From Frateuria flava (GTDB lineage Bacteria > Pseudomonadota > Gammaproteobacteria > Xanthomonadales > Rhodanobacteraceae): a DNA stretch of 64,000 nt. The notes beneath the pieces were generated by a model. It was given only the letters and a program-made list of their open reading frames with translations. It was not told the origin of the DNA and ran no database searches. The DNA lies in NCBI RefSeq assembly GCF_017837635.1, contig NZ_JAGJRS010000031.1, positions 62,001 through 126,000 of the forward strand, in the 5' to 3' direction. How positions within the stretch are numbered: the first letter of the stretch is position 1; the number at the start of each line of letters is the position of its first letter. A program made the translations under genes and the position numbers. This document shows positions 7,252 through 60,952 of this stretch, in pieces.

Positions 7252-9030
7252 TCAGGCCGTGGCAGCGCGGGGCGCGGATTCGGCAGCGGACAGCCCACGG
7301 GCCACGCGCTGCTGTTCCTGGTGCAGGCGTTCGGGCATGCGCGAGCCGAAGCTGGCCAGGTACTCGCCGATCGCGTCCAGCTCGGCCTGCCAGCCGGCGG
7401 TATCGATGTCCAGCAGTTCGCTGGTGGCTTCGCGCGGGAGGTTCAGGCCTTCGAGCTTCAATTCGCCCTCGGCCGGGATGATGCCGATCGGTGTCTCCAT
7501 GCCACGGGCCTTGCCGTCCGCGCGGTTGATCATCCATTCCAGCACGCGCAGGTTCTCGCCGAAGCCCGGCCACAGGAACTTGCCGTCCTTGCCCTTGCGG
7601 AACCAGTTGACGTGGAAGATCTTCGGCAGCTTCATGCCCGGCTTGTCGAACGACAGCCAGTGCGCGAAGTAATCGCCGTAGTGGTACCCGCAGAACGGCT
7701 TCATCGCCATCGAGTCACGACGCAGCACGCCGACCGCGCCGGTCGCCGCGGCGGTGGTTTCCGAGCCCATCGCCGCGCCCATCAGCACGCCGTGCGCCCA
7801 GTCGCGCGCTTCCATCACCAGCGGCAGCAGCGAGGGACGGCGGCCGCCGAAGACGATCGCATCGATCGGCACGCCCTGCGCGTCCTCGGCCTTCTCCGAC
7901 CAGGTCGGGCACTGCTTTGCGCTCACGGTGAAGCGCGAGTTCGGGTGCGCGGCCGGGCCGTTGGCCGGATCGTAGGGGCGGCCCTGCCAGTCGGTGACCG
8001 GCGTGCCGGGCAGGCCTTCCCACCAGGGCTGGTTGTCGGCGGTGACGGCCACGTTGGTGAAGATGGTGTTGCGCGAGATCGACTGCAGCGCGTTGGAATT
8101 GGTCGACGTGCTCGTGCCCGGCGCCACGCCGAAGAAGCCGGCCTCAGGGTTGATCGCGTACAGGCGGCCATCGGCGCCGGGGCGCATCCAGCAGATGTCG
8201 TCGCCCACGGTCCACACCTTCCAGCCGTCCTTGCGGTAGCCCTCCGGCGGAATGAGCATGGCCAGGTTGGTCTTGCCGCAGGCCGAGGGGAAGGCGGCGG
8301 CGACGTAGTGCGTGTCGCCCTGCGGGTTCTCGATGCCCACGATCAGCATGTGCTCGGCCAGCCAGCCCTCGTCGCGGGCCTGGTTCGAAGCGATGCGCAG
8401 CGCATGGCACTTCTTGCCCAGCAGCGCGTTGCCGCCGTAGCCGGAGCCATAGGACTTGATCGTGCGCTCCTCGGGGAAGTGCATGATGAAGCGGCGCTCG
8501 GGGTCGAGCTCGCCGGTCGAGTGCAGGCCCTTCACGAACGAGCCCTCCCGCTCGATGCGTTCCTGCGCGGCCTTGCCCATGCGCGTCATGATGCGCATGT
8601 TGGCGACCACGTACGGGCTGTCGGTGATTTCCACGCCGCAACGCGACAGCGGCGAGTCGATCGGGCCCATGCAGTACGGGATGACGTACATGGTGCGGCC
8701 CTCCATGCAGCCGTCGAACAGCGCATCGATCTTGGCGTGCGCCTCGGTCGGATCCATCCAGTGGTTGTTCGGGCCGGCGTCGTCCTGGTTCTTGTGGCAG
8801 ACGAAGGTCAGGTGCTCCACGCGCGCCACGTCGGACGGGTTGGAGCGGTGCAGGTAGCAGCCCGGGTGGGTTTCCTGGTTGAGCTCGATCAGGGTGCCGT
8901 CGGCAAGCATCTCCTTCACCAGCTGCTGGTACTCGGCCTCCGAGCCGTCGCACCAATGGATCTTCGCCGGCCGCGTGCGCGCCGCCACCTCGTTCACCCA
9001 GCGCTCGAGCGCTTCCAGCTTGCTGGCCAT
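7252..9030 (-). CDS. pckG: Phosphoenolpyruvate carboxykinase (GTP)
   Basis: 592 residues, the usual length of GTP-dependent PEP carboxykinase, which converts oxaloacetate and GTP to phosphoenolpyruvate, GDP and CO2 in gluconeogenesis. The kinase-1a P-loop is visible as FPSACGKTNLAM, followed by the kinase-2-like GDDICWM, and the N-terminal WVNEVAARTRPAKIHWCDGS is typical of the GTP family rather than of ATP-type PckA. Start ATG at 9030. It stands alone, in the same direction as the sigma operon but separated from it by 306 bp of hairpin repeats. Its presence fits growth on amino acids and fatty acids, consistent with the neighbouring fadE and amino-acid catabolic genes. Confidence 0.97.
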   Translation of the reverse strand: MASKLEALERWVNEVAARTRPAKIHWCDGSEAEYQQLVKEMLADGTLIELNQETHPGCYLHRSNPSDVARVEHLTFVCHKNQDDAGPNNHWMDPTEAHAKIDALFDGCMEGRTMYVIPYCMGPIDSPLSRCGVEITDSPYVVANMRIMTRMGKAAQERIEREGSFVKGLHSTGELDPERRFIMHFPEERTIKSYGSGYGGNALLGKKCHALRIASNQARDEGWLAEHMLIVGIENPQGDTHYVAAAFPSACGKTNLAMLIPPEGYRKDGWKVWTVGDDICWMRPGADGRLYAINPEAGFFGVAPGTSTSTNSNALQSISRNTIFTNVAVTADNQPWWEGLPGTPVTDWQGRPYDPANGPAAHPNSRFTVSAKQCPTWSEKAEDAQGVPIDAIVFGGRRPSLLPLVMEARDWAHGVLMGAAMGSETTAAATGAVGVLRRDSMAMKPFCGYHYGDYFAHWLSFDKPGMKLPKIFHVNWFRKGKDGKFLWPGFGENLRVLEWMINRADGKARGMETPIGIIPAEGELKLEGLNLPREATSELLDIDTAGWQAELDAIGEYLASFGSRMPERLHQEQQRVARGLSAAESAPRAATA

Positions 9031-9155: not shown

Positions 9156-9734
9156 TCAGGCCGGAATCAATGTCGCGATCATGTGTTCCACGTAGGCGTC
9201 GAAGTCCTCGTGGCTGATGCGAGGCAGGCCCAGCGTGAAATTGAGTTGCAGGAAACCGACGTAGGCGGCGTAGGTCAGCCGCGCGCGGTTGAGCGCCTGC
9301 GGCGGGGGCAGGCCGGCCTCGCGGAAGGCGGTGGCCAGGAACTCGGTGCGCCGCTGCGACACGCGTGCCATCACCGGCACCACCAGCGGGTGATCCAGTG
9401 CCTTGAGCAATGCCGCATAGACGCGATGGGGACGCAGTTCGTGAGCAACGCGGCGGAACAGTTCGGGCAGCCGCTCGCGCGGATCGGCGATCGCCTCGAT
9501 CTGCGCGATCACCTCGCGCTCGCCGTACTGTTCCCAGCGCTCCAGCGCCGCCTGCAGCAGCGCCTCGCGGGTGCGGAAATGCCAGTAGAAGCTGCCCTTG
9601 GTCACGCCCAGACGGCGGGCCAGGGCCTCCACCGCCAACGCCCCGACGCCCTGTTCGGCGATCAGGTCCAGGGCGGCGTCTTCCCAGTTCTCGGCGGACA
9701 GGCGAGTGCGTTCGGGCTTGCTGCTGGCGTTCAT
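9156..9734 (-). CDS. TetR/AcrR-family transcriptional regulator, likely repressor of the hydrolase-fadE operon
   Basis: 192 residues. The N-terminal helix-turn-helix (about 20-65) shows the TetR signature GVTKGSFYWHFRTREALL. The C-terminal ligand-binding part is all-helical and diverged. It is transcribed away from the alpha/beta hydrolase-fadE operon, with 188 bp between the two start codons. A perfect TetR-like inverted repeat covers the promoter of that operon (9908-9927). By analogy with other TetR regulators of fatty-acid degradation, the ligand may be an acyl-CoA or fatty acid; that part is inference from context only. Confidence 0.9.
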   Translation of the reverse strand: MNASSKPERTRLSAENWEDAALDLIAEQGVGALAVEALARRLGVTKGSFYWHFRTREALLQAALERWEQYGEREVIAQIEAIADPRERLPELFRRVAHELRPHRVYAALLKALDHPLVVPVMARVSQRRTEFLATAFREAGLPPPQALNRARLTYAAYVGFLQLNFTLGLPRISHEDFDAYVEHMIATLIPA

Positions 9735-9796
9735 CAGCGCATGGTAGCGCTGTGGGAGGGCAGGCGACAGGCGGGCGCGACAGCGGCGTCTTCTCG

Positions 9797-9867
9797 TAGC
9801 AGCCTGGTTGCGGGTGATGCCTTACCCAACCTTGGCGAAAGGGCATCGCCCGCAAGCGGGCTCCTGC
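9797..9867. repeat. REP-like imperfect palindrome (GCAGGAGCCCGC family)
   Basis: The arms 9797-9822 and 9841-9867 are imperfect reverse complements. The right arm carries the sequence CGCCCGCAAGCGGGCTCCTG, which recurs at 60879-60952; a shorter relative lies at 26291-26317. It sits between the divergent tetR and hydrolase genes, just upstream of the -35 of the operon. Confidence 0.8.
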
Positions 9868-9886
9868 AGAAGTCGTGAGGCGGGAG

Positions 9887-9927
9887 TTGACCTCGCCCTG
9901 TCGCCAAACCATACTCTTGCGTATGGT
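9887..9927 (+). promoter_or_regulatory. Sigma-70-like promoter with embedded TetR-type operator, leaderless start
   Basis: TTGACC at 9887-9892 and CATACT at 9910-9915 are separated by exactly 17 bp. The predicted transcription start falls at or next to A9923, the first base of the ATG of the hydrolase gene. No Shine-Dalgarno sequence precedes that ATG, so the mRNA is probably leaderless. The perfect inverted repeat ACCATAC-N6-GTATGGT (9908-9927) covers the -10 and the start codon, an ideal position for repression by the divergently encoded TetR protein. Confidence 0.75.
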
Positions 9928-10807
9928 ATCAGTTGATCGCTTTTACGCTCCCGACGGCCTGGACCTGGCGGTTGAAACACGCCATGACGGTGGCGCGCCG
10001 ACGCTGCTGTTCGCCCACGGCTTCGGCCAGACCCGCGGCGCCTGGAACGGGGCTGCCGATGTGCTGGCGGCCCGGGGCTACCGCTGCGTGAGCTTCGACA
10101 GCCGTGGCCACGGCGAGAGCGGCCGCGTCGCGGGCGGGGATTACCACATGGACCAGTTCGCCGGCGACCTTCAGGCGCTGGCGCGGGCTCAACCGGAGCC
10201 GCCGGTGCTGATCGGCGCCTCGATGGGCGGCCTGCTGGGGCTGGTGCTGGCGGGTGAGGCGCGCCCGGTGCCGTTCCGCGCGCTGATCCTGGTGGACATC
10301 ACGCCGCGCTGGGAAACGGCGGGCGTCGAACGCATCCTGGCTTTCATGCAGGCCCATCCCGACGGCTTCGCCGACTACGCCGAGGCCTCAGCGCAGGTCG
10401 CCGCCTATCTGCCGCAACGACGCGAGCGCAAGCGCGAAGACCAGCTCAAGCCGCTGCTGCGCGAAGGGGCAGACGGTCGCCTGCGTTGGCACTGGGACCC
10501 GGCCCTGCTCGCCGGGGTGGTAAGCGAAAGCGAGCGCTACCAGCCACGCCTGCTGGCGGCGGCCGCGCGCGTGGAGGTGCCGGTCCTGCTGCTGTCGGGC
10601 GAACGCAGCGACGTGGTCTCGCGCGATACCGTGGCCGAGTTCCTCAGGCTGGTACCGCACGCGTGCCACGTGGAGGTCGCCGGTGCCACGCACATGCTTG
10701 CGGGTGACGCCAACGACGCATTTACGCGCGAAATCGCCGCTTTCATCCAAGATGTTTTCCCGGGCGGCCCCACCCGCCGCCCCGCCATTCCGCAAGAGGT
10801 GCATTGA
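9923..10807 (+). CDS. Alpha/beta hydrolase
   Basis: 294 residues with the alpha/beta-hydrolase core: an oxyanion HGFGQTRGAW segment near the N-terminus, the nucleophile elbow GASMGG (Ser), a late Asp in LLLSGERSDVV and the catalytic His in ATHMLAG. The substrate cannot be assigned; co-transcription with fadE suggests an acyl ester or acyl thioester. The ATG at 9923 sits at the predicted transcription start. A GTG at 9875 would add 16 residues but would place the whole promoter inside the coding region. The gene ends one base before the fadE start codon, so the two are translationally linked. Confidence 0.88.
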   Translation: MVSVDRFYAPDGLDLAVETRHDGGAPTLLFAHGFGQTRGAWNGAADVLAARGYRCVSFDSRGHGESGRVAGGDYHMDQFAGDLQALARAQPEPPVLIGASMGGLLGLVLAGEARPVPFRALILVDITPRWETAGVERILAFMQAHPDGFADYAEASAQVAAYLPQRRERKREDQLKPLLREGADGRLRWHWDPALLAGVVSESERYQPRLLAAAARVEVPVLLLSGERSDVVSRDTVAEFLRLVPHACHVEVAGATHMLAGDANDAFTREIAAFIQDVFPGGPTRRPAIPQEVH

Positions 10808-10808
10808 C

Positions 10809-13280
10809 ATGTCCGTGTTCCTGACCCTGCTGGCCGCCATCGTGGCGACCGGCGCCTGTGCCTACCACCGCACGAGCCTGCGCACCTGGGCGATCGCCAC
10901 GGTGGCCGCCACGCTGGTGGTGGGCGTGCTGACCGGCGCCTGGGTGACGATGACCGTGCTGCTGGTCATCGAGCTGCTCATCGCCGTGCCGCTGCTGATG
11001 CCGGCCTTCCGCCGCCGTCAGATCAGCGCGCCGCTGCTGAAAATGTTCGCCCGCGCCACGCCCACACTTTCGGCCACCGAGCAGACCGCGCTGGAGGCCG
11101 GCACGGTCGGCTTCGAGGGCGAGCTGTTCTCGGGCAAGCCGGACTGGCGGCAACTGCTCAAGCAGCCCAAACCCGAGCTGAGCACCGAAGAGCAGGCCTT
11201 CCTCGACGGCCCGGTGGAAGAGCTCTGCGCGATGATCGACGACTGGCAGATCACCCACGAGCTGGCCGACCTGCCGCCGGAGGTCTGGGCCTTCATCAAG
11301 AAGAACAAGTTCTTCGGCATGATCATTCCCAAGCAGTACGGCGGCCTGCAGTTCTCCGCATTGGCGCATTCGGCGGTGCTGCAGAAGCTGTCGACCGCTT
11401 CGGCGACAGTGTCCTCCACGGTGGCCGTGCCCAACTCGCTGGGGCCGGCCGAACTGCTGCTGCACTACGGCACCGAGGCGCAGAAGAACCACTACCTGCC
11501 CCGCCTGGCGGTCGGCGAAGAGATTCCCTGTTTCGCGTTGACCGGCCCTTACGCCGGCTCCGACGCCACCTCGATTCCCGACTACGGCATCGTCTGCAAA
11601 CAGGTGGTCGACGGCGTCGAGACGCTGGGCGTGAAGCTCAACTTCGACAAGCGCTACATCACGCTGGCGCCGATCGCCACGGTCATCGGCCTGGCCTTCC
11701 GCATGTACGACCCCGAGCACCTGCTGGGCGAGACCGAGGACCTGGGCATCACGCTGGCGCTGCTGCCGCACACCACCCCGGGGCTGGAGGTCGGCCGCCG
11801 TCACTTCCCGCTCAACATCCCGTTCCAGAACGGCCCGGTGCGCGGCAAGGACGTGTTCGCGCCGCTGTCGACCATCATCGGCGGGCCGCAGATGGCCGGC
11901 CACGGCTGGCGCATGCTGGTCGAGGTGCTGTCGGTGGGCCGCGCCATTTCGCTGCCCTCCAACGCCACCGGCGCGATGCGCGCCTCCGCCGCGGCGACCG
12001 GCGCCTATGCGCGCATGCGCAAGCAGTTCGGCCTGGCGATCGCGCGTTTCGAAGGCGTGGAGGAAGCGCTGGCGCGCATCGGTGGCCTGACCTACGCCAC
12101 CGCGGCGCTCTCGCGCGCCACCGCCGCGGCGGTCGACCGCGGCGAGAAGCCCGCGGTGACCTCGGCCATCGCCAAGTACCACGCCACCGAATGGGCGCGC
12201 CAGGTCGCCAGCGACACGATGGACGTGCACGGCGGCAAGGCCGTGCAGCTGGGCCCGAAGAACTATGCCGCGCGCGGCTGGGAAAGCGTGCCGATCGCGA
12301 TCACCGTGGAAGGCGCGAACATCATGACGCGCAGCCTGATGATCTTCGGCCAGGGCGCGATCCGCTGCCATCCGTACGTGCTCAAGGAAATGCAGGCGCT
12401 CTCCATCGCCGACTACGGCGAAAAGCTGCGCACCTTCGACCGCCTGCTGTTCGGCCACGTCGGCTTCGGCGTCTCCAATGCCGTGCGCAGCTTCGTGCTC
12501 GGTGTCACCGGTGCGTCGATCGGGCAGAGCGCGGGTGATGCCTACACGCGCCGCTTCTACCGCAAGCTCGACCGTTACTCGGCCGCGCTCGCGCTGTGCG
12601 CCGACGTGTTCATGGGCGTGCTGGGCGGCAAGCTGAAGTTCAAGGAGAAGCTCTCCGCGCGGCTGGGCGACGTGTTGTCGTATCTGTACATCGCCAGCGC
12701 CATGCTCAAGCGCTATGAGGACACCGGCCGCCCGGAAGCGGATCGTCCGCTGCTCGCTTGGGCTTTCCACGAATGCATGTGGCGCACGCAGATGGCGCTG
12801 GACGGTGCGATCCGCAACTTCCCGGTCAAGCCGGTGGGCTTCCTGCTGCGCGTGCTGGTGTTCCCGTTCGGCCGGCGCGAAGTGCCGCCTTCCGATCGCC
12901 TGGGCCGCCGCGTGGCCGCCATCCTCACCGCGCCGGGCGAGGCACGCGACCGCCTGATCGACTGGGTCTACCTCACGCCCACGCCGAACAACACCATCGG
13001 CCGCATGAACGCGCTGCTGCCGGACGTGATCGCCGCCGAGCCGGTCGAGCGCAAGTTCGGCAAGGCGCTCAAGGCCGGCCAGCTGCAGGCGCACGACTAC
13101 GAAGGCCAGTTGGCCGAAGCGGTGCGCGAGGGCGTGATCACCGAGGCCGAGGCCGCACTGCTCAAGCGCGTGCGCGATGGCGTGTTCGAGTTCATCTCGG
13201 TGGATGACTTCGATCCGTCCGAGCTGGGCACCGCAGTGACCCGGGCGGACAAGAAGCCGCGTTCGGTCGCCGTGGCCTGA
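10809..13280 (+). CDS. fadE: Acyl-CoA dehydrogenase, FadE type
   Basis: 823 residues, close to the roughly 814 of Escherichia coli FadE, the first dehydrogenase of fatty-acid beta-oxidation. Two N-terminal hydrophobic segments (about 1-22 and 25-60) would anchor it at the inner membrane. The flavin domain follows, with FALTGPYAGSDATS, and the C-terminal extension characteristic of FadE rather than of short acyl-CoA dehydrogenases is present. An AAGAGGTG ribosome site lies just upstream of the ATG at 10809, inside the end of the hydrolase gene. It is the second gene of the TetR-controlled operon. No electron-transfer flavoprotein gene is nearby. Confidence 0.95.
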   Translation: MSVFLTLLAAIVATGACAYHRTSLRTWAIATVAATLVVGVLTGAWVTMTVLLVIELLIAVPLLMPAFRRRQISAPLLKMFARATPTLSATEQTALEAGTVGFEGELFSGKPDWRQLLKQPKPELSTEEQAFLDGPVEELCAMIDDWQITHELADLPPEVWAFIKKNKFFGMIIPKQYGGLQFSALAHSAVLQKLSTASATVSSTVAVPNSLGPAELLLHYGTEAQKNHYLPRLAVGEEIPCFALTGPYAGSDATSIPDYGIVCKQVVDGVETLGVKLNFDKRYITLAPIATVIGLAFRMYDPEHLLGETEDLGITLALLPHTTPGLEVGRRHFPLNIPFQNGPVRGKDVFAPLSTIIGGPQMAGHGWRMLVEVLSVGRAISLPSNATGAMRASAAATGAYARMRKQFGLAIARFEGVEEALARIGGLTYATAALSRATAAAVDRGEKPAVTSAIAKYHATEWARQVASDTMDVHGGKAVQLGPKNYAARGWESVPIAITVEGANIMTRSLMIFGQGAIRCHPYVLKEMQALSIADYGEKLRTFDRLLFGHVGFGVSNAVRSFVLGVTGASIGQSAGDAYTRRFYRKLDRYSAALALCADVFMGVLGGKLKFKEKLSARLGDVLSYLYIASAMLKRYEDTGRPEADRPLLAWAFHECMWRTQMALDGAIRNFPVKPVGFLLRVLVFPFGRREVPPSDRLGRRVAAILTAPGEARDRLIDWVYLTPTPNNTIGRMNALLPDVIAAEPVERKFGKALKAGQLQAHDYEGQLAEAVREGVITEAEAALLKRVRDGVFEFISVDDFDPSELGTAVTRADKKPRSVAVA

Positions 13281-60878: not shown

Positions 60879-60952
60879 TGCAGGAGCCCGCTTGCGGGCG
60901 ATGCTCCTCCGCCGGCACCCTGAAGGACATCGCCCGCAAGCGGGCTCCTGCA
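60879..60952. repeat. REP-like element between kinase and isomerase genes
   Basis: TGCAGGAGCCCGCTTGCGGG (60879-60898 and following) pairs with the reverse complement ending CCCGCAAGCGGGCTCCTGCA (60933-60952). It shares arms with the element at 9.8 kb and interrupts the operon between fructokinase and AGE genes. Confidence 0.9.

Follow-up and report, generated by a model that had tools for sequence, protein, structure and literature searches.

A candidate TfmR operator over the -10 element and start codon of a predicted leaderless hydrolase–fadE operon in Frateuria flava

TfmR and related described systems

TfmR of Xanthomonas citri is a long-chain-fatty-acid-responsive repressor of mhpC-fadE (XAC3052-3054; PMC6637906). 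Deletion of tfmR raises the mhpC/fadE promoter 50- to 100-fold; by EMSA and ChIP the protein was shown to bind there, and long-chain fatty acids release it; an operator sequence, a transcription start or a leaderless mRNA is not given in the main text of that work (PMC6637906). PsrA – known from Pseudomonas and, as Smlt2053, from Stenotrophomonas – is likewise a TetR-family fatty-acid-responsive repressor of beta-oxidation genes, but its operator reads G/CAAAC-N2-4-GTTTG/C and its sequence identity to TfmR is low (PMC13104628, PMC10304680); according to a 2026 review, the two are not close orthologues (PMC13104628).

The closest described layout to the one analysed here is that of the AcuR system of Rhodobacter sphaeroides, whose acuR-acuI-dddL operon is leaderless by 5' RACE (PMC3017554). 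The two have in common a TetR-family repressor, an inverted repeat with an N6 gap over the promoter, a leaderless first gene (predicted in our case) followed by genes with a Shine-Dalgarno sequence, and conservation in relatives (PMC3017554). However, the published account places the AcuR operator, TAATAGAC-N6-GTCTATTA, over the promoter (-35 TTGATT, -10 TATTAT) and not over the start codon, and AcuR is autoregulated, with acrylate as its ligand (PMC3017554), whereas the regulator described below is encoded divergently. Several of the proven leaderless examples in proteobacteria are regulators (PMC3017554).

The window – the whole 64,000-nucleotide stretch of Frateuria flava DNA that was analysed – contains the following features:

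9156..9734, minus strand: TetR-family repressor, TfmR orthologue, 192 aa (Pfam TetR_N, PF00440, 2.8e-15)
9887..9892, plus strand: -35 element TTGACC (promoter scan; TTGAC lies 16-18 bp from CATAC in 78/80 loci)
9908..9927, no strand assigned: operator O2, ACCATAC-N6-GTATGGT, predicted TfmR-binding site (perfect repeat, genome-unique, kept in 80 loci)
9910..9915, plus strand: -10 element CATACT, within the left half of the operator (promoter scan)
9923..9925, plus strand: ATG of the hydrolase gene, within the right half of the operator (in frame in 63/63, no Shine-Dalgarno)
9923..10807, plus strand: alpha/beta hydrolase of mhpC/bioH type, operon gene 1 (Pfam Abhydrolase_1, 4.3e-22)
10809..13280, plus strand: fadE, long acyl-CoA dehydrogenase, operon gene 2 (NCBIfam FadE_coli 1129 bits, PRK09463 1108 bits)

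The tetR gene is divergent from the hydrolase–fadE operon, from which it is separated by 188 bp; directly downstream of it, on the minus strand (7252-9030), lies a gene for GTP-dependent phosphoenolpyruvate carboxykinase. As ATG 9923 starts the hydrolase, with fadE second (10809), an earlier note on this DNA was right to speak of a fadE operon, though the start codon in question is not that of fadE.

With X. euvesicatoria as the Xanthomonas reference, the window TetR, which carries a TetR N-terminal domain, forms a reciprocal best hit (64% identity); each protein is the only strong match in the other's genome, and the X. euvesicatoria gene also adjoins mhpC-fadE. Judged by reciprocal best hit and synteny, the divergent TetR is the orthologue of TfmR, so both regulator and target are already known, and the orthologous gene, the divergent layout and the two-gene operon are all as in X. 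citri (PMC6637906). The earlier note had set the motif apart from the PsrA site, and correctly so. PsrA is rejected as the regulator, since the operator is not of the GAAAC-N-GTTTC type and the orthology does not fit either; the beta-proteobacterial FadP is also rejected, as it is reported to be unique to that class.

Our main reading, to which we assign a probability of about 0.85, is that 9908-9927 is the operator of this divergent TfmR-type TetR, which would repress a leaderless hydrolase–fadE transcript until fatty acids release it. A repressor dimer on the repeat would cover both the -10 element and the start point, shutting out RNA polymerase; the promoter would be freed by long-chain fatty acids or by their CoA esters, with both ligand and repression taken from the X. 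citri work. The released promoter would give a transcript whose 5' end lies at the ATG (A9923) in the right half of the operator, or about 2 nt from it at most. A start there would make the hydrolase mRNA leaderless; the hydrolase would be translated from that 5' end and fadE, second in the mRNA, from an ordinary internal Shine-Dalgarno sequence (AGAGGTG at about 10795). From conservation, frame, the missing Shine-Dalgarno sequence and promoter geometry we infer both where exactly the repressor binds and that the 5' end is leaderless; a search of the open-access literature found no 5'-end mapping or footprint for this locus or its relatives, nor any paper describing the TfmR operator sequence or a leaderless start. 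Within that literature, the regulator–target pair is known, and it is the operator site and the leaderless start that lack a description. TfmR affects virulence in Xanthomonas, and the repeat is a strong candidate for its missing operator sequence.

Promoter and operator in the window and across tfmR loci

The repeat, ACCATACTCTTGCGTATGGT, is perfect, with arms of 7+7 bp and a 6-bp gap. TTGACC and CATACT are 17 bp apart and form the sole sigma-70-like site in 9700-9990 (shuffle mean 0.0), although the -10 hexamer agrees with the consensus at only 4/6 positions; the hydrolase ATG starts 8 nt past its final base. These placements, together with the overlap of the repeat with both -10 element and start codon, are those that the earlier note had proposed. 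With up to three mismatches the operator matches once in the window (shuffle mean 0.45), and with 0 or 1 mismatch it has this one match, and no further copy, in the whole 3.68-Mb genome. Three copies with 2 mismatches show no link to fatty-acid genes, so that the regulator looks local in this genome. X. citri also has a fadH site.

The suggested search of relatives for the motif near fadE was carried out on 80 tfmR loci from named genomes, of which one (L065) is a partial region; the 80 loci analysed are the remaining 79 plus the window. An in-frame hydrolase from a more distant family (L138) is not counted, since its start may be internal. The operator is found in all 80 loci (in L076 at three mismatches), always divergent from the same TetR gene, and its positions 4-7 and 14-16 are invariant. 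Apart from the operator, the most conserved feature is the -35 element, a TTGAC-type sequence (at least 5/6 matching) located 16-18 bp ahead of CATAC in 78/80 loci. The layout of the predicted operator on promoter and start codon is conserved across a bacterial order. In Xanthomonas and Stenotrophomonas the spacer is 16, so that the exact -10 element, and with it the start point, can be placed only to within about 2 nt.

About half of the loci (41/80, 40 of them with the hydrolase) carry a second operator, ACCATAC-N6-GTATTGA. It lies 36-38 bp further upstream, with its right half running into the -35 element (GTATTGAC). The Xanthomonas loci compared have two operators – one over the -35 element, the other over the -10 element and start – whereas the window has only the latter: like most Rhodanobacter and Dyella loci it is without the upstream one, scoring 8 mismatches at that position. 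A class-wide search for the double-operator pattern returned no more than two genomes, of which one lies outside the order.

The start codon of the hydrolase

In every one of the 63 loci with a hydrolase gene, the operator ATG shares the reading frame of that gene, even though its distance to the conserved core differs from that in the window by anything from 0 to 23 codons. Parsimony on the TetR tree gives some 31 changes of this distance, all multiples of three; the count is approximate because the distances rest on local alignments. The 153 other ATGs lying up to 150 bp upstream serve as a control: just 13 of them are both open and in frame. The earlier note's claim of a TetR operator over the -10 element and start codon of a predicted leaderless operon is supported by this frame, by the repeat in 80/80 loci and by the lack of Shine-Dalgarno sequences.

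As that note had also said, no Shine-Dalgarno sequence precedes ATG 9923 (duplex energy +1.4 kcal/mol). Promoter geometry puts the start point only a few nt from the start codon; the predicted 5' end of the mRNA shows no unusual RNA fold (z 0.80). Across the 63 loci, Shine-Dalgarno energy at the operator ATG averages -0.61 kcal/mol and reaches -4 or below in 3, compared with a mean of -7.35 kcal/mol at fadE in the same loci, where 53/53 reach that value (paired Wilcoxon p about 3e-10). These figures bear on the alternative of a genuine operator combined with an mRNA that begins at another promoter, further upstream, and carries the hydrolase behind a leader lacking a Shine-Dalgarno sequence. 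The 188-bp gap is roomy enough for another promoter, but TTGACC-17-CATACT is the only promoter-like site found there and its -35 element is so well conserved; moreover, given that fadE always has a Shine-Dalgarno sequence, its absence from hydrolase leaders in 60/63 loci would be strange. We consider an upstream start improbable.

Still less likely is that translation begins elsewhere – at TTG 9917, GTG 9875 or a downstream codon – with the operator ATG a by-product of GTATGGT. The motif does nearly always contain ATG, even where no gene starts there, and the TTG and GTG do lie in frame upstream of the hydrolase ATG in this genome. Against this stand the frame in 63/63 hydrolase loci, compared with 3/15 for fadE where the hydrolase is missing, and the absence of upstream in-frame starts from 25/63 loci – often because the TGA of the TTGAC -35 element is an in-frame stop. 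The window has no alternative downstream start, and eight loci have no alternative ATG, GTG or TTG on either side of the operator ATG.

If the operator ATG is the hydrolase start, as we favour, the repeat should also shape the first codons of the protein, and the earlier note had proposed Met-Val as the result. Codon 2 encodes Val in 47 of the 63 loci, with Glu (9) and Asp (4) making up most of the rest (other, 3); the constraint is therefore a strong tendency, not a rule. Were the main reading true, the hydrolase would be a conserved and testable gammaproteobacterial example of a metabolic enzyme made by leaderless translation.

Loci without the hydrolase and related operators

In 17 loci (Lysobacter, Luteimonas, Thermomonas, Xanthomonas sp. 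GPE 39 and others) the hydrolase is absent and the operator kept, and presence or absence of the gene implies at least 4 state changes on the tree. With 63 loci on one side and 17 on the other, this is a natural comparison between a repressor site that doubles as a start codon and one that does not. In the hydrolase-less loci, fadE starts 17-260 nt past the operator ATG, in frame with it in 3 of the 15 measured and with a Shine-Dalgarno sequence in 13 of 15; in L059 the ATG itself is gone (GTACGGT). As the operator persists where it contains no operon start codon, it is held by repressor or promoter constraints. On this comparative evidence the operator keeps its place on the promoter, and the hydrolase takes its start from the ATG supplied by the operator; the repeat would be primarily a promoter-anchored repressor site.

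The same promoter-operator layout recurs in an outgroup family of the same order (L013, L014, L015, L018, L028, L032), whose TetR is 36-42% identical and which has no hydrolase; here fadE begins 25-27 nt past the operator ATG, behind a Shine-Dalgarno sequence and mostly out of frame. We lean, by a narrow margin, towards an ancestral promoter-anchored TetR operator whose ATG gave a leaderless start to the hydrolase when it joined the operon upstream of fadE. On that reading a single 20-bp element, preserved throughout an order, would combine the operator with the core promoter, the transcription start and the start codon, and only in loci lacking the hydrolase would its ATG have no coding role. 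That some regulator other than the adjacent TetR binds the repeat is very unlikely: binding by TetR is a prediction, and the TfmR operator sequence is absent from main texts, but the repeat tracks the same TetR gene in the 80 loci and in these outgroups, and X. citri TfmR binds this promoter region (PMC6637906).

In that outgroup family (L019-L021, L023, L024, L026, L027, L031), ACAATAC-N6-GTATGGT also follows a TTGAC -35 element, and the gene downstream, identified in L027, is a FadI-type thiolase (fadI). The motif is thereby tied independently to fatty-acid degradation, and fadI is a likely second member of the regulon, to judge from sequence.

In several hydrolase-less loci (L081, L084, L094, L100 and others), the operator ATG opens frames whose length ranges from 2 codons to at least 100; some overlap fadE, and they are possible leaderless upstream reading frames with their ATG at the predicted 5' end. 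This predicted layout matches that of Escherichia coli mRNAs in which an AUG at the very 5' end precedes a gene with a Shine-Dalgarno sequence (PMC4965119); the abstract of that study mentions no tie to a repressor operator.

On the tetR side, many Rhodanobacter and Dyella loci (L035-L051) have a half-site, ACCATAC-N6-GAATGTC (3 mismatches), just ahead of the tetR start codon – a possible autoregulatory site – which is weaker in the window, at 9730-9750. Between tetR and the promoter, at 9798-9868, the window also holds a REP-like imperfect hairpin ending TCGCCCGCAAGCGGGCTCCTGCA, with about 60 near-identical copies in the genome and an inverted pair at 60879-60952.
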